Below, one piece after another: positions 24,945-32,340 of a DNA stretch of 43,994 nt. The notes below the pieces were generated by a model that searched no databases, was not told the DNA's origin, and saw only the letters and a program-made list of their open reading frames with translations. Source of the DNA: Peptococcaceae bacterium (lineage in GTDB: Bacteria > Bacillota > Peptococcia > DRI-13 > PHAD01); contig JANLFJ010000025.1 in the NCBI GenBank assembly GCA_024655825.1, positions 1 through 43,994 on the forward strand. The letters run 5' to 3'. Both the position numbers and the translations under genes were made by a program. The first letter of the stretch is position 1. The number at the start of each line of letters is the position of its first letter.

Positions 24945-25367
24945 TCAGATATGCATAATTCCCAGGCCCGATGTCTCGTGGTTGGTCATGGTATGCATGG
25001 CAAAATGCCCGTATATGGCAACAGCCAGCCATTTTTCATAGCGGACGGCGGCGATTTTCACCGCCATATTGGAAGAACTGGGTGCTCCTAGGAGCATCCC
25101 TTCCTTCGCCTCAATACAAGCATGAATAAGCGCGTGCATTTCTTCAGGCTGTTTATTAATCACGTTATTGTTCAGGCAGGCCCCTATTACGGCGGAGACG
25201 ATCTTTTGCTTCATTTCCGTCACGTTTCCGCCCGCCCCGGTAACGGCACAGGAATAGCCCTCTTCAAAAAGCCGTTTTTTTAAAGCGTCTTCTTCCGGTT
25301 TCGACGAGGTGAGCGCCAAAAAAAGCGCTTTCTTTCCTATGGAATGGAGTTTTTCTTCACTCATCAT
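24945..25367 (-). CDS. HutP-family RNA-binding antiterminator-like protein
   Basis: 140 residues, close to Bacillus subtilis HutP (148). The C-terminal half is recognisable: HALIHACIEAKEGMLLG, WLAVAIYG and an end reading NHETSGLGIMHI, against the HETFGVGINHI of HutP. HutP, with histidine and Mg, binds NAG triplets in mRNA and prevents termination before the histidine-use genes. No histidine genes are here; the next gene in the same direction encodes an OadG-type subunit, reached across a terminator-like hairpin. The ligand and target may therefore differ from HutP. Two adjacent ATG codons (25367 and 25364) are possible starts behind a weak AGGA. Confidence 0.82.
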   Translation of the reverse strand: MMSEEKLHSIGKKALFLALTSSKPEEDALKKRLFEEGYSCAVTGAGGNVTEMKQKIVSAVIGACLNNNVINKQPEEMHALIHACIEAKEGMLLGAPSSSNMAVKIAAVRYEKWLAVAIYGHFAMHTMTNHETSGLGIMHI

Positions 25368-25520: not shown

Positions 25521-26342
25521 CTAAACCCTGTCCAGGGCTTCTCTCAAGCTTTTAATGTACGCGCAGGCCTCGTCAAGCACATGCTGCGGCTGTTCTTGAA
25601 CAAGGTGCAAATTTTTTTCAATTCTTTCAATGAGGGAACTGCCCACTATCACGCCGTCGGCGGCACTTCCCATGCGGGCGGCGCTTTCGGGGCCGGAAAC
25701 GCCGAATCCAACGGCCAGGGGCAGGTCCGTGCTGGCGCGGACCCTGGACAAAAACTCCTCCAATCCGCCGGGCATCTCTTTCCTGCTGCCTGTCACTCCT
25801 GTCACGGAAACGCAGTAAACGAACCCTCCCGCCAGTTTCGCGATTTTCTGCAGGCGCGCCGCGGTGCTGGTTGGAGCCGCCAGGAAGATGAGATCAATCC
25901 CTGCGCCGCTTGCAGCCCGTTTTAACGGCAGCGCTTCCTCCAGCGGCAGGTCCGGCACGATAAGCCCGCTTATTCCGGCCCCGGCAGCCTGGACGACAAA
26001 CCTTTCCGGGCCGGGACGGTAAATGGAGTTGTAGTAAGCCATGAACAACAGGGGTAGCCTGGCTTGCTGCCGGATGCGGCTTGCCGTCCTCATGACCTTT
26101 TCCAGGGTCACTCCTCCCGCCAGCGCGCGCTGGGAGGCTTTCTGGATGGTGGGGCCGTCCGCCACCGGGTCGGAATAGGGAATGCCCAGTTCGACCAGGT
26201 CGGCCCCGGCCTCCTCCAGGCCCAAAACCAGCTTTTCCGTAAATTCCAGCGAGGGGTCGCCGCAGGACACATAAGGGATCAGCGCCTTCCGGCCGTTTTT
26301 TTTCAGGTTTTCAAACGTTTGGGTGATCGGTGTCTTATTCAC
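25521..26342 (-). CDS. trpA: Tryptophan synthase alpha subunit
   Basis: 273 residues. Cleaves indole-3-glycerol phosphate to indole and glyceraldehyde 3-phosphate, passing indole to TrpB through the subunit tunnel. The catalytic Glu and Asp lie in [16 protein letters not shown] and the phosphate-binding [10 protein letters not shown] is present. The start overlaps the trpB stop by four bases (ATGA), so the subunits are translationally coupled. It is the last gene of the operon; only a weak 4-bp stem was seen downstream as possible terminator. Confidence 0.96.
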
Positions 26343-27526
26343 AGTCTCTCCCCCTTTTTCAGTTTGCTTACGGTTTCCACATCTTTGTCCCCGCGCCCCG
26401 ACAGGTTGACAACCACGATTTTTTCGGGTTCCAGGCCAGGCGCCAGCTTCATCACGTAGGCCAGGGCATGAGCGCTTTCCAGGGCCGGAATGATCCCTTC
26501 CAGGCGGGCCAGTGTTTCAAAAGCCGCCAGCGCTTCCCTGTCGGTAACGGCAACGTACTGGGCAAGGCCGCTTTCCTTATAATAACTGTGCTCGGGCCCA
26601 ACCCCCGGGTAATCGAGGCCGGCGGAAACGGAATGCGCCGGTATGACCTGGCCGTCTTCGTCCTGGAGAAGATAACTCAAGGCCCCATGCAGGACGCCTT
26701 TGCTGCCGGCGGTCAGGGCGGCGGCGTGCCGGCCGCTGTCAAGGCCGCATCCTCCAGCCTCCACCCCGATCTTTTTGACCTGGTCCGAACAGGCGAAGGG
26801 ATGGAAAATGCCCATGGCGTTGCTGCCGCCGCCCACGCAGGCTACCAGGTAGTCGGGCTGGCGGCCTTCCAGCTTCGCCAGCTGATTTTTCGTCTCTTCC
26901 CCGATCACGCTCTGAAAATCCCGCACCAGCCTGGGATAAGGATGTGGCCCCACCACCGAACCTATGCAGTAATAGGTGTCTTCAACATGGGCCACCCAGT
27001 ACCTCAGGGCCTCGTTTGTCGCGTCTTTCAGCGTGCCGGAACCGGAAGCCACCTCCACGACTTCGGCGCCCAGCAGCTTCATGCGAAAAACGTTCAGCGC
27101 CTGGCGCCTTGCGTCTTCCTCGCCCATGAAAACCAGGCATTCGCAGCCTAAAAGAGCCGCGGCGGTCGCCGTGGCCACTCCGTGCTGCCCGGCTCCCGTT
27201 TCGGCTATCACTTTCCTCTTGCCCATCTTTCTGGCCAGCAAGGTTTGCGCCAGGCTGTTATTAATCTTGTGCGATCCGGTGTGGTTAAGGTCTTCCCTTT
27301 TCAGGTAAATCCTGGCCCCACCCAGGTACTCTGTCAGCCTTTTGGCAAAATACAAAGGCGAAGGCCTCCCCGCGTAGGCTTCCAAGTAGTAGGCCAGTTC
27401 CTTCTGAAACTCGCCGTCTTTGGCCAGGCTTAAATAAGCCGCTTCCAGCTCCTCAAGAGCAGGCATCAGTGTTTCCGGGACAAACTGTCCCCCGAATTCG
27501 CCGAAATATTTATCAACCTTATTCAC
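26339..27526 (-). CDS. trpB: Tryptophan synthase beta subunit
   Basis: About 395 residues, a PLP enzyme condensing indole with serine. The PLP lysine is in HTGSHKINN, the phosphate cup in [10 protein letters not shown], and [13 protein letters not shown] marks the N-terminus. I place the start at GTG 27526, with GAGGAGG upstream; the frame remains open for 16 more codons into trpF without similarity. The start overlaps the trpF stop by 8 bases and the stop overlaps the trpA start, indicating coupled translation. It is the standard TrpB1 type that works with TrpA. Confidence 0.96.
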
Positions 27527-28154
27527 CTGCAGCCCTCCTCGCCGCTTTGATAAACTGCACAATTTTACCGGCATCTTTTATCCCGGGCTCCTTTTCCACC
27601 CCGCTGCTCACATCAACGCCAAAAAAACAGCCCATCCGGACGGCCCGGCCCACGTTGCCGGGCGTCAGTCCTCCCGCCACAATAAGCGGCGTCCCTTTCC
27701 AGTCATAATCCAGCGCGGCTTCCCAGGGAAACGTCATCCCCGTGCCGCCGCTTTTCCCGGGAACATAAGCATCAAGCAGGACCCTGTCGGCCGCTCCCTT
27801 TAGTATGTATTCCCCTATGGCGGCGCCGTCCAGTTTAGCGCGAACGGAAAATGCTTTAATCACCTGGTAACCTGGAAAACCAAGACAGTACTCCGGGGAC
27901 TCGCCGCCGTGGAACTGGAGGCCTGTCAGCCTGCAGCAGCGCGCTATTTCCTCCACCAAGCCGGGAGCTTCGTTTACAAAAACCCCGATCTTTTCAACTC
28001 CAGGCGGCAGCATCCCGGCAATCTCCCTTGCCTTCTCCGGGTCGACCTTCCGCGGGCCGGGCGCAAAGACAAAGCCCACGGCATTGGCCCCTGCCGCCGC
28101 CGCTGCAACGGCGTCGCCAGGGTTGGTGATCCCGCATATTTTTACCCAAACCAC
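27519..28154 (-). CDS. trpF: Phosphoribosylanthranilate isomerase
   Basis: About 211 residues, a TIM-barrel isomerase turning N-(5-phosphoribosyl)anthranilate into the carboxyphenylamino-ribulose phosphate. VKICGIT near the N-terminus carries the catalytic Cys, the catalytic Asp is in LLDAY, and the phosphate loops [10 protein letters not shown] and GVDVSSGVE are intact. The likely start is GTG 28154, five bases after the trpC stop, with GGAAGG nine bases upstream; an earlier GTG at 28181 inside trpC is less likely. The C-terminus overlaps trpB by 8 bases. Confidence 0.94.
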
Positions 28155-28158
28155 AGTT

Positions 28159-28932
28159 TCACAACCTTCCCGCAATTTCACGCGTTTTTTGAGCCATGTC
28201 TGCGCTGGTCACCAGGGCCTCGCCCACCAGGACGGCATCCACGCCGGCCTGGGCCAGGAGCTTGATGTCCGCGGCGCTTGAAATGCCGCTTTCACTGACT
28301 AACAGGCAGGTATCCGGTACAAGCTCCGCCAGTTCGAGGGTTGTGTTCAAATCCGTCCTGAAGGTCCGCAGATCCCGGTTATTTATACCTACAACAACCG
28401 CTCCGGCTTCGAGCGACATTTCCAGTTCCCGGCGGGTATGCGCTTCAACCAGGACATCCAGTTCAAGCTCGCGAGCCAGGCGAAGCAGTGAAACCAGTTC
28501 TCTTCTTGGCAGCACGGCCGCGATTAATAAAACGGCGTCCGCGCCAAAAAGGCAAGACTCCCAGACCTGGTAAGCGTCGATGATAAAATCTTTACGCAGC
28601 AAGGGCAGTGGAACCGCCGCCCCGACTTGTTCCAGGTGGGCCAGGCTGCCCTGGAAAAAACGCTCGTCAGTCAGGACGGATACGGCTGCAGCGCCGTTTT
28701 GATGATAGCACGCCGCAATCCCGGCAGGGTCAAAGTCACGGCAGAGCAAGCCTTTAGAAGGCGAAGCCCTCTTGACCTCGGCGATAAGGCTGACCCCCTC
28801 TTTTTCCAGGCTTTCCTTAAACCCCCGCCTCTTTTTGAAAACCACCTTCTTCTCAAGTTCGGCAAGCGGGAACAGTTCCTTATGCCTGGCCACTTCTGCT
28901 TGTTTAAAGGCGATGATCTCGTCCAGGATCAT
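28159..28932 (-). CDS. trpC: Indole-3-glycerol phosphate synthase
   Basis: About 257 residues. Closes the indole ring by decarboxylating cyclisation. LIAEVKRASPSKG holds the essential lysine, RKDFI and INNRDL are the further active-site strands, and SESGI the phosphate site. ATG 28932 after AGGCGG is preferred to a GTG three codons upstream. It stands between trpD (12 bases away) and trpF. It is a separate protein, not fused to TrpF as in enteric bacteria. Confidence 0.95.
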   Translation of the reverse strand: MILDEIIAFKQAEVARHKELFPLAELEKKVVFKKRRGFKESLEKEGVSLIAEVKRASPSKGLLCRDFDPAGIAACYHQNGAAAVSVLTDERFFQGSLAHLEQVGAAVPLPLLRKDFIIDAYQVWESCLFGADAVLLIAAVLPRRELVSLLRLARELELDVLVEAHTRRELEMSLEAGAVVVGINNRDLRTFRTDLNTTLELAELVPDTCLLVSESGISSAADIKLLAQAGVDAVLVGEALVTSADMAQKTREIAGRL

Positions 28933-28944
28933 GCTCTGCACCGC

Positions 28945-29988
28945 CTAGCAGGGAAGAGGGGCTGCCGAGCCGGTCCCGCCGGTGGCCGCAACAAGCTGCT
29001 CCAATTTTTCCAGGGCTTTTCCCGAGTCAATGCTCTCCCCGGCAGCCCTGACCCCCTCCGGAAGGTCCCGGACCACCCCGCTTGCCGCCAGGGCCGCCGC
29101 GGCATTGAGCAGCACTATGTCCCGATGAGGACCTTTTTCTCCACTCAAAACACGGCGCGTGATCCCGGCGTTTTCCCTGGCGTCTCCTCCCTGCAGCTGT
29201 CTGAGGGTTGCCCTGGTAAACCCCAGTTCCTCCGGGTGGATGTAAAACGTCTTAATGCTGCCGTTGTTCAAGCAGCTCACCTTCGTCGGTCCCGTATTGG
29301 AAATCTCGTCCAGACCGCCGTCCCCGTGGACGACGTAGGCGCTTTTTACGCCCAGCCGCTCCAGGACGCGGGCCATCACCTCCGTCAGGCCGGGTTCATA
29401 AACACCAAGCACCTGAACATTGGCCCGGGCGGGGTTAGTCAGCGGTCCCAGGATGTTGAAAATGCTGCGAATCCCTATTTCCTTTCTCGGCCCGCTGGCG
29501 TGTTTCATGGCCACATGAAAAACAGGCGCGTACAGGAAACCTATCCCTATCCGGTCCAGGATGGACATCACTTCACCGGGCAAAAGGTCCAGTTTCACAC
29601 CGAGCGCCTCCAGCAAATCGGCGCTCCCGCTTTTACTGGAAACCGAACGGTTCCCATGCTTGGCCACCGGAACCCCCGCTCCCGCCACCACAAAAGCAGC
29701 GGTGGTGGATACATTGAAAGTCCCGCTGCAATCGCCTCCCGTGCCGCATGTATCGACAAGCAGCGAATGCCGGCAAGAAAAGGAAAGGCTTTTTTCCCTC
29801 ATGGCCTGGGCGCACCCCGAGATCTCCTCCACGGTCTCACCTTTCATTCTTAAAGCCGTAAGCAGGCTCCCTATCTGCGCGCCGGTTGCCTCCCCATTCA
29901 TAACCTGGAGCATGACCTGGCGCGCTTCCTGGAACTGGAGGTCCTCCCCGCTTACAATTTTACCAATCATCTCTTTCAACACACTCAA
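28945..29988 (-). CDS. trpD: Anthranilate phosphoribosyltransferase
   Basis: 347 residues, the full length of the family. Transfers phosphoribose from PRPP to anthranilate. The PRPP/Mg motif DTCGTGGD and the KHGNRSVSSKSGSADLLE segment are intact, as is the GPLTNPA loop. The start is probably TTG 29988 with AGGAGAGGAG upstream; a GTG two codons in is an alternative. The gap from trpG is 21 bases. It is not fused to TrpG. Confidence 0.95.
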   Translation of the reverse strand: MSVLKEMIGKIVSGEDLQFQEARQVMLQVMNGEATGAQIGSLLTALRMKGETVEEISGCAQAMREKSLSFSCRHSLLVDTCGTGGDCSGTFNVSTTAAFVVAGAGVPVAKHGNRSVSSKSGSADLLEALGVKLDLLPGEVMSILDRIGIGFLYAPVFHVAMKHASGPRKEIGIRSIFNILGPLTNPARANVQVLGVYEPGLTEVMARVLERLGVKSAYVVHGDGGLDEISNTGPTKVSCLNNGSIKTFYIHPEELGFTRATLRQLQGGDARENAGITRRVLSGEKGPHRDIVLLNAAAALAASGVVRDLPEGVRAAGESIDSGKALEKLEQLVAATGGTGSAAPLPC

Positions 29989-30009
29989 CTTTCTCCTCTC
30001 CTCTGGAAA

Positions 30010-30591
30010 CTATTGGCGCCGAACAGGCTGGACATCAAGAAAATTCCTTAGCATATCCAGGCCGTATTCCGTGCAGATCGACTCGGGATGGAACTGCACC
30101 CCGTAGGTGGGATGCTGTTTATGCTGCACCGCCATGATAATGCCGTCCTCCGTCCTGGCCGTGATCTCCAGGTCATTGGACCCGGCGTTTTCCCGCAAGA
30201 CCAGGGAATGGTAGCGGGTTACCCTTATTTCCCGGGGAATACCGGCAAACAGCCCTCTCCCTGTATGGCGAATGAGCGAGGTCTTGCCGTGAACGGGTTC
30301 GCCTGCCGGCTCAACGCGAAACCGGAAAACTTCGCCGATGCACTGGTGCCCTAGGCAAACCCCCAGGATGGGCACCTTCCCCGAAAAATGCCTCACCGCT
30401 TCGGTGCATATGCCCGCATCGGCGGGTGTTCCCGGTCCGGGAGAAAGGACGATCCTTTCGGGGCAAAGTTGCTCTATCTTTTTGACGTCTATCTGGTCGT
30501 TGCGCACCACCAGGACCTCCGCTCCCAAAATGCCGAAATACTGCACCAGGTTGTAAGTAAAGGAATCATAATTGTCGATAACCAGGATCAC
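30010..30591 (-). CDS. trpG: Anthranilate synthase glutamine amidotransferase subunit
   Basis: 193 residues, class I glutaminase delivering ammonia to TrpE. The catalytic Cys79 is in GVCLGHQCIG, the His/Glu pair in GVQFHPES, and the oxyanion strand is SPGPGTP. The start is GTG 30591, three bases after the trpE stop, with the ribosome site inside the trpE end. In some Firmicutes this subunit is shared with folate synthesis; its location inside the trp operon here points to a tryptophan role, though sharing cannot be excluded. Confidence 0.95.
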   Translation of the reverse strand: MILVIDNYDSFTYNLVQYFGILGAEVLVVRNDQIDVKKIEQLCPERIVLSPGPGTPADAGICTEAVRHFSGKVPILGVCLGHQCIGEVFRFRVEPAGEPVHGKTSLIRHTGRGLFAGIPREIRVTRYHSLVLRENAGSNDLEITARTEDGIIMAVQHKQHPTYGVQFHPESICTEYGLDMLRNFLDVQPVRRQ

Positions 30592-30594
30592 ATC

Positions 30595-32076
30595 TCATTC
30601 CCCCTTCCCGGCCGCCTGGATGGCCCTGAGCATGGCTTTCGCCTTGTTTTTGCATTCCAGGTCTTCTTTTTGGGGGTCGGAATCGGCTACTATCCCTGCC
30701 CCGGCCTGCGCATAGACCCGGTTCCCCTTGATCACGGCGGTCCGTATGGTAATGCAGGTGTCCATATCCCCGCTGTAGCCGAAATACCCCACCGCCCCGG
30801 CGTAAGGCCCTCTTGGGGTTTTTTCCAGTTCTTCTATTATTTCCATGGCCCTGATTTTCGGCGCCCCGGAGACAGTGCCGGCAGGAAAACAGGCCCGCAG
30901 CAGCTTAAAGCTGTTGACTCCCGGCGCCAGCGTTCCCCTGACCCTGGATACCAGGTGCATCACGTGGGAGTATTTTTCAATCTCCATGAATTTTTCCACC
31001 TTCACGCTGCCGTACTCGCAAACCCTCCCCAGGTCGTTGCGGCCCAGGTCAACCAGCATCAGGTGTTCAGCCTTTTCTTTTTCGTCACCGGCCAGTTCTT
31101 CTTCCAACCGGCGCTCCTCGGCATCATCTCTTCCCCGCGGCCGCGTGCCGGCAATGGGCCGGACCTCGGCCTCCCCCCCGCTTGCTTTGACCAGCACCTC
31201 CGGAGACGACCCCACCAGCTTGAGGTCATCCATCTCCAGAAAAAACATGTACGGGGAAGGATTGATCGCGCGCAGGCTGCGGTATATTTCGAGCGGCTCA
31301 CATTCCAGTTCCGTCATGTACCTCTGGGAAAGAACAACCTGGAAAATATCCCCGGCCCTGATGTATTCCTGGGCCTTTTTAACCATCTCCACAAATTCCC
31401 CGGCGGTCATGTTGGAGCTAACCCGGCATGGGCTGCCGGAAGGCCGGTTTTCGGGCCGGCCTGCTTCGCCTGTGCAAACCGGCCGGCGCAGCTTCTGGGC
31501 AATGCTTTTGATTCTCTGCACGGCCTGCTCGTAATCCTGCTCAGGATCGCCTGTGATCCTGGCGTTTGACACGACCTGGATAACCTGCCGCACATGGTCG
31601 TAAATTACCAGGGTGTCCGCAAACATAAACACGCAGTCGGGAAAATCCTCTTCACAGTTTTTGCCGGGAGGCAGCTTTTCAAAATAGCGGGCCATCCCGT
31701 ATCCCAGGTAGCCCACAGCGCCGCCGGAAAAACCGGCAAGACCCGGAACCCTGACGCTGCGGCTTTCCGCCATCAGCCCTTCCAATTCCCGCAAGGGGTC
31801 TTCAGTATGAAAAGAGGTTTCCCGGCCGTTTTCCAGCAGGGTGACCTTGCCGTTAACAGCCTTGAAAACAAGGCGCGGTTCGGCGCTTATAAAGGAGTAC
31901 CGGCCCACCTGGACGCCTCTTTCCACGCTCTCCAAAAGAAAGCTGTATGGACCCTCTCTAATCTTTAAGTAAATGGAGAGCGGGGTGTCAAACGACGCCG
32001 AATACTGGCAGAAGACCGGAACGACGCTCCCTTTCTCAGCCCTGCGCAGGAATTCTTCTTTGCTAAGAGCATCCAT
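30595..32076 (-). CDS. trpE: Anthranilate synthase component I
   Basis: 493 residues, first committed enzyme of tryptophan synthesis, chorismate to anthranilate. The chorismate-binding core is clear: PIAGTRPRG, LVDLGRNDLGRV and CFPAGTVSGAPKIRAMEII. An N-terminal SIYLKIREGPYSFLLESVE carries the LLES motif of the tryptophan feedback site. It is the first gene of trpEGDCFBA, preceded by a leader of about 228 bases holding a TRAP-like triplet array and an intrinsic terminator. The ATG has GAGGG upstream. Confidence 0.96.
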   Translation of the reverse strand: MDALSKEEFLRRAEKGSVVPVFCQYSASFDTPLSIYLKIREGPYSFLLESVERGVQVGRYSFISAEPRLVFKAVNGKVTLLENGRETSFHTEDPLRELEGLMAESRSVRVPGLAGFSGGAVGYLGYGMARYFEKLPPGKNCEEDFPDCVFMFADTLVIYDHVRQVIQVVSNARITGDPEQDYEQAVQRIKSIAQKLRRPVCTGEAGRPENRPSGSPCRVSSNMTAGEFVEMVKKAQEYIRAGDIFQVVLSQRYMTELECEPLEIYRSLRAINPSPYMFFLEMDDLKLVGSSPEVLVKASGGEAEVRPIAGTRPRGRDDAEERRLEEELAGDEKEKAEHLMLVDLGRNDLGRVCEYGSVKVEKFMEIEKYSHVMHLVSRVRGTLAPGVNSFKLLRACFPAGTVSGAPKIRAMEIIEELEKTPRGPYAGAVGYFGYSGDMDTCITIRTAVIKGNRVYAQAGAGIVADSDPQKEDLECKNKAKAMLRAIQAAGKGE

Positions 32077-32114
32077 TTCGATTCCCTCTTTCCTGGTAAG
32101 CGGTCAGCCCGGTG

Positions 32115-32149
32115 AAAAAAAATAATCCGGGACTGAACATCCTGGATTA
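32115..32149 (-). terminator. Attenuator terminator in the trp leader
   Basis: On the minus strand a stem of TAATCC-A-GGA with TCC-C-GGATTA (one mismatch, 7-base loop) is followed by eight T residues. It lies 39 bases before the trpE start and after the triplet array, exactly where a regulated terminator is expected. Confidence 0.85.
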
Positions 32150-32200
32150 CATTTAGCGAGAAACACTTATGGAGGAATCGGCGGACAGCGGTACGCAGTC

Positions 32201-32265
32201 CTCAAATCCCCGTAACTGGCCTTAACTCGTCTAAACTCATCTCAACTCAGCTCAGCTCACAACTG
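32201..32265 (-). promoter_or_regulatory. TRAP-type (NAG repeat) RNA-binding site in the trp leader
   Basis: In the leader RNA nine NAG triplets (five GAG, then UAG, GAG, AAG, CAG) follow each other at an exact 5-base pitch from 32258 down to 32216. A CAG lies just upstream (32265-32263) and a further GAG three periods downstream (32203-32201). TRAP (MtrB) binds eleven (G/U)AG triplets spaced by two to three bases, so the match is strong. The last GAG overlaps GGACTG (32201-32196), which can pair with CAGUCC in the terminator hairpin and so may be part of an antiterminator. Confidence 0.85.
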
Positions 32266-32310
32266 ATTGGCACTTACCAAATGATTTGTTTTGATTATGA
32301 TTTGGTATTG

Positions 32311-32340
32311 ATTATAAAACATCGCAGTCTTGCCTGTAAA
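32311..32340 (-). promoter_or_regulatory. Sigma-A promoter of the trp operon
   Basis: On the minus strand, TTTACA (32340-32335) and TATAAT (32316-32311) are 18 bases apart. Transcription would start near 32304, giving a leader of about 228 bases before trpE. Confidence 0.8.

Follow-up and report, generated by a model that had tools for sequence, protein, structure and literature searches.

A putative TRAP-type attenuator in the leader of the trpEGDCFBA operon of a Peptococcaceae bacterium

The closest described relative of the leader considered here is the trp leader of Bacillus subtilis, which is governed by TRAP, the ring-shaped tryptophan sensor encoded by mtrB. The two leaders have in common a promoter, an array of (G/U)AG triplets at a 5-nt pitch, trpE as the first trp gene and, as predicted for the present locus, an antiterminator that overlaps the terminator. 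A 5′ stem-loop, present in the corresponding place in B. subtilis, is possibly shared as well. The B. subtilis array comprises eleven triplets, whereas the present one has nine regular triplets, the last two of them AAG and CAG, and one additional triplet in phase. Unlike in B. subtilis, about 65 nt separate the array from the terminator, the predicted antiterminator reaches the terminator loop, trpG lies inside the operon, and there is no clear anti-TRAP gene. An overlap is also known from B. subtilis, where the antiterminator spans +60 to +111 and the terminator +108 to +133 (PMC4027176). The Trp T-box leaders that precede trpE in Clostridia and other Firmicutes likewise place trpE under terminator-based control by tryptophan supply, but they sense uncharged tRNA-Trp, and no such element precedes the trpE studied here. 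HutP, the antiterminator of the hut operon, recognizes NAG triplets with 4-nt spacers, i.e., at a pitch of 7. It too controls a terminator through NAG-triplet recognition, and a HutP-family gene follows trpA at the present locus; however, the triplet spacing and the outcome differ, and we found no evidence of HutP action here. The mechanism itself is known from Bacillus, and the locus described below is a well-formed clostridial example of this classic RNA-protein switch.

In the window, i.e., the whole 43,994-nt stretch of contig JANLFJ010000025.1 that was analyzed, the leader of the trp operon occupies the minus strand from 32340 to 32077. It is followed on the same strand by trpE (30595–32076), which encodes anthranilate synthase component I (Pfam PF00425 and PF04715) and is the first gene of the operon, and by the contiguous open reading frames of trpG, trpD, trpC, trpF, trpB, and trpA (25521–30591); gene names were assigned by sequence recognition, with a Pfam check for trpE alone. 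Directly 3′ of trpA, also on the minus strand, lies a gene for a HutP-family RNA-binding antiterminator (24945–25367; PF09021, E 1.1e-37). This gene appears, on reading by eye, to have its own promoter and looks like a transcription unit separate from the trp operon. A terminator-like hairpin (about 24880–24790) and a small oadG-like gene are found 3′ of it.

All of the leader elements listed by an earlier, sequence-only reading of this DNA, among them a sigma-A promoter, nine NAG triplets at perfect 5-base pitch, and a terminator with eight U, are indeed present on the minus strand. The sigma-A-type promoter (32311–32340) consists of TTTACA (32340–32335), an 18-nt spacer, and TATAAT (32316–32311), which together match 11 of 12 consensus bases; transcription would start at about 32304–32310. 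Between the start site and the array, the minimum-energy fold places a possible 5′ stem-loop, formed by TACCAAAU and AUUUGGUA (32275–32307). When the free leader was folded, 3.2% of shuffles of this stretch were equally stable, and the stem-loop prediction is suggestive only.

The predicted TRAP-binding site (32216–32258) contains nine NAG triplets at an exact 5-nt pitch, in the order GAG (five times), UAG, GAG, AAG, and CAG. The GAG triplets start at 32258, 32253, 32248, 32243, 32238, and 32228, with TAG at 32233, AAG at 32223, and CAG at 32218. A tenth, outlying GAG (32201–32203) is in phase, 55 nt (11 × 5) from the first triplet, and two NAG triplets upstream of the array (CAG at 32265 and AAG at 32275) are out of phase. 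Such an array is far beyond chance: the next-best run of NAG at pitch 5 elsewhere in the window comprises three triplets, and 60 Markov shuffles of the window yielded a maximum of three to four. The minimum for stable TRAP binding is seven (G/U)AG triplets (PMC4027176); since the first seven triplets of the array are consecutive (G/U)AG, the leader reaches this minimum. No second TRAP site was found in the genome with patterns of seven triplets with three mismatches or five triplets with one mismatch, bar one chance-like match on contig C14, although these patterns could miss arrays with many 3-nt spacers.

The presence of mtrB in the genome, on which the sequence-only reading had staked its proposal, is borne out by an intact 78-aa frame on another contig (PF02081 match at G000:C26:19986-20183, E 1.2e-39, 135.9 bits against a cut-off of 21.3), with a coaD-like gene on one side and a small gene downstream. 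When its product is aligned with Bacillus TRAP of solved structure (1c9s), the two are identical at 46 of 66 positions (about 70%, counted manually). The alignment also shows conservation of Lys37, Lys56, and Arg58 (B. subtilis numbering), which are RNA-contacting residues of TRAP. The sole anti-TRAP match in the genome, 26 aa long (E 0.01) and located inside a 390-aa frame, is probably an unrelated zinc-finger stretch.

The sequence-only reading regarded TRAP control as unusual for an anaerobic clostridial lineage. This is not so: 542 mtrB loci were found when about 85,000 species genomes were scanned, and TRAP is common in anaerobes of the Moorella, Desulfotomaculum, and Heliobacterium type. 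The nearest carriers include Moorella, Desulfotomaculum, Pelotomaculum, Heliobacterium, Thermincola, Carboxydocella, and many metagenome-assembled genomes. Leaders were compared at non-identical loci with strong trpE matches, which were collected across the order and in most of the mtrB carriers that have a name; nearly all of these loci come from genomes with mtrB. An array was defined as a chain of at least six NAG triplets at a 5–6-nt pitch within 700 nt upstream. By this definition, arrays precede trpE at 42 of 56 loci, compared with about 0.25% of shuffled upstream regions. Several of the 14 remaining loci have broken arrays, and at two of the 14 (L179 and L213) the array lies at a greater distance, in front of an aroF-like gene upstream of trpE. 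In the order itself, 8 of the 11 trpE genomes with mtrB have arrays, versus none of the four without it. Of the 311 steps between triplets in 44 related arrays, 280 have a pitch of 5, and in many relatives a terminator is found downstream of the array. Comparison with the leaders of relatives, which had been proposed as a check, therefore supports TRAP control, and together with mtrB it supports the Bacillus-style arrangement originally suggested. The AAG and CAG triplets, previously flagged as departures from the G/U preference, do deviate from it, but they are ordinary among relatives, the first base of the triplet being G in 260 cases, U in 55, A in 29, and C in 11 in the 44 arrays.

The intrinsic terminator (32122–32150) is a hairpin of GUAAUCC and GGAUUAU with a predicted energy of −11.7 kcal/mol, followed by a run of eight T (U8 in the RNA) at 32122–32115. 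A simple terminator scan did not list it, probably owing to internal mismatches. Folding predicts an antiterminator whose 5′ half (32226–32256) is made up of the GAG/UAG repeats (GCUGAGC, UUG, GAU, GUUUAG, and CGAG) and whose 3′ half (32132–32160) combines CUCGCUAAAU with the terminator 5′ arm (AUCCAG) and loop (GUUCAGU). In the non-terminator fold, five repeats are paired, their partners being the stretch that immediately precedes the terminator and the 5′ arm and loop of the terminator itself. While the terminator 3′ arm has yet to be transcribed, the predicted antiterminator is already partly formed: the nascent RNA folds at about −45 kcal/mol, with the repeats paired to CUCGCUAAAU and to the AUC of the terminator 5′ arm. 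With the 3′ arm blocked, the best fold is −50.6 kcal/mol, with an added helix between a GCUGAGC repeat and the GUUCAGU of the loop. When the array is blocked in silico, the long alternative pairing is lost and the terminator remains as the main structure. At equilibrium without TRAP, the terminator fold is favored over the non-terminator fold by about 4 kcal/mol; read-through must therefore rest on co-transcriptional (kinetic) folding. Across 13 leaders, some of them near duplicates, the non-terminator fold mostly has a better energy than with shuffled spacers (Stouffer −5.6), but the array-specific antiterminator gain is weakly better than shuffles (Stouffer −2.4, the same caveat applying); comparison thus lends the predicted antiterminator moderate support. 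A matrix of duplex energies between arrays and downstream regions, own versus swapped, gave no information, since any array rich in GAG scores high as an open duplex.

Taken together, the leader is very probably a TRAP-controlled transcription attenuator of trpEGDCFBA, to which we assign a probability of about 0.93; TRAP binding, its dependence on tryptophan, the antiterminator fold, and termination are what we infer for it. When tryptophan is ample, tryptophan-loaded TRAP would wrap the GAG/UAG array as it emerges from RNA polymerase. The wrapped repeats would be kept from pairing with 32160–32132, so that the terminator at 32150–32122 could form and transcription would stop before trpE. When tryptophan is scarce, the repeats would instead pair with 32160–32132, including the 5′ arm and loop of the terminator, and the operon would be transcribed.

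The sequence-only reading envisaged TRAP attenuation with another antiterminator, in which GGACUG (from about 32201) pairs with CAGUCC of the terminator. These hexamers exist and are complementary, and the 3′ one does overlap the terminator. Nevertheless, forcing this helix gives −38.1 kcal/mol, about 12 kcal/mol worse than the −50.6 kcal/mol of the best non-terminator fold, while the free leader folds at −54.7 kcal/mol. The GGAC of GGACUG pairs locally with GUCC, and the proposed helix falls outside the regular array, of whose triplets it includes none but the outlying GAG. We consider this version improbable; the working antiterminator is probably a different pairing, built from the repeats themselves. 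A related possibility, judged somewhat less probable still, is that TRAP acts chiefly on trpE translation and not on termination. TRAP does exert translational control in Bacillus (PMC4347634), and the arrays of some relatives overlap the starts of other genes. In the present leader, however, the array ends about 140 nt upstream of the trpE start, a good terminator is present, and the trpE ribosome-site region folds alike with the array blocked or free, with no sign of translational control.

Two further readings dispense with TRAP at this leader. The HutP-family protein whose gene follows the operon might be what reads the array, and the match of that gene to its family is strong; but the array pitch is 5, and in 44 leaders the triplet distances are mostly 5 or a multiple of it, with no excess over background at 7. 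Since mtrB is present in the genome and the HutP-family gene is apparently under its own promoter, we regard this reading as highly improbable. Least credible of all is an array that is functionless, whether by chance or decay. The terminator alone could indeed serve as a constitutive attenuator, yet the array statistics, mtrB, and the comparative data all speak against this. Besides the equilibrium energies and the modest array-specific gain noted above, one observation does count against the TRAP attenuator: not every genome with mtrB has an array before trpE, and at L117, L131, L172, and L119, only T-boxes precede that gene, L117 and L131 being close relatives.

In two genomes of one sister genus, which belongs to the same taxonomic order, both elements occur. 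L110 (3003–3560, minus strand) and L111 have a promoter, an array, a terminator, and, directly after it, a Trp T-box (123 bits; specifier UGG read from the alignment) before trpE. This tandem probably represents one evolutionary event, and array and T-box are apparently on one transcript, although one weak internal promoter-like site may be present.

A pattern search of 26 mtrB genomes, whose reversed-pattern control was not independent because GAG arrays match the reversed pattern too, revealed arrays upstream of trpP, aroF, and trpD and of genes for three further products: a PLP enzyme resembling TrpB, an ABC-type binding protein, and a paaK-like ligase. Some of these sites are followed by terminators, and others overlap the ribosome site; of the 21 examined, one (L247, within a coding frame) looks like chance. 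TRAP-like arrays lie at or just before the start of the TrpB-like PLP enzyme gene at L223, L229, L239, L241, L242, L255, and L256, in genomes with mtrB, several of them with no recognizable trpE. Translational control of the TrpB-like genes by these arrays is likely. An array with a terminator precedes the gene of an ABC-type substrate-binding protein (PF04392), perhaps involved in tryptophan uptake, at L234, L235, and L254, and an array with a terminator-like hairpin precedes a paaK-like AMP-binding ligase gene at L224, L225, L226, and L227. At L232, L233, and L240, the array sits at the trpP ribosome site; in Bacillus, trpP is known to be targeted by TRAP. Intra-operon arrays between trpG (or aroF) and trpD overlap the trpD ribosome site at L238 and L253. 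Some mtrB genomes in which trpE is behind a T-box, such as that of L117, also have TRAP-like arrays before other tryptophan genes.

We lean towards a wider picture in which TRAP would be an old tryptophan regulator among these anaerobes and would control more genes than in Bacillus (trpE, trpP, and the genes for the TrpB-like enzyme, the ABC-type binding protein, and the paaK-like ligase, aroF, and trpD). T-boxes would have replaced TRAP before trpE in several lineages, and in the sister genus the two would act in series, trpE answering to both free tryptophan and uncharged tRNA-Trp on one transcript. A literature search returned no description of TRAP sites in such anaerobes or of TRAP and a T-box in one leader; it covered the comparative work of Gutierrez-Preciado et al. 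2007 (Trends Genet) as a citation only, and an earlier description is possible. The rule that Clostridia use T-boxes for trp is, in our opinion, too simple. If the wider picture is true, the relatives represent natural stages of regulator replacement (TRAP only, TRAP with a T-box, T-box only), and the additional sites are candidate new TRAP targets that are directly testable. The leads of most interest are in the relatives, outside the window.

As for the T-boxes of the genome studied here, RF00230 has no match in the window, nor in L109 at E 0.01. Those found elsewhere in the genome precede genes that, named by eye, are serA, thrS, pheS, ilvD, valS, metG, ilvA, aroF, glyQ, leuS, and a paaK-like gene, in addition to a tandem pair on contig C9. 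No Trp T-box is among them, the aromatic T-boxes carrying UUC and none UGG (specifiers read by eye); from this absence, TRAP looks like the sole tryptophan sensor of the operon in this genome. The two tandem T-boxes (L165, G000:C9:5685-6301) both apparently have a UUC (Phe) specifier, and the T-box before the paaK-like gene (L167) is likewise of the Phe type.
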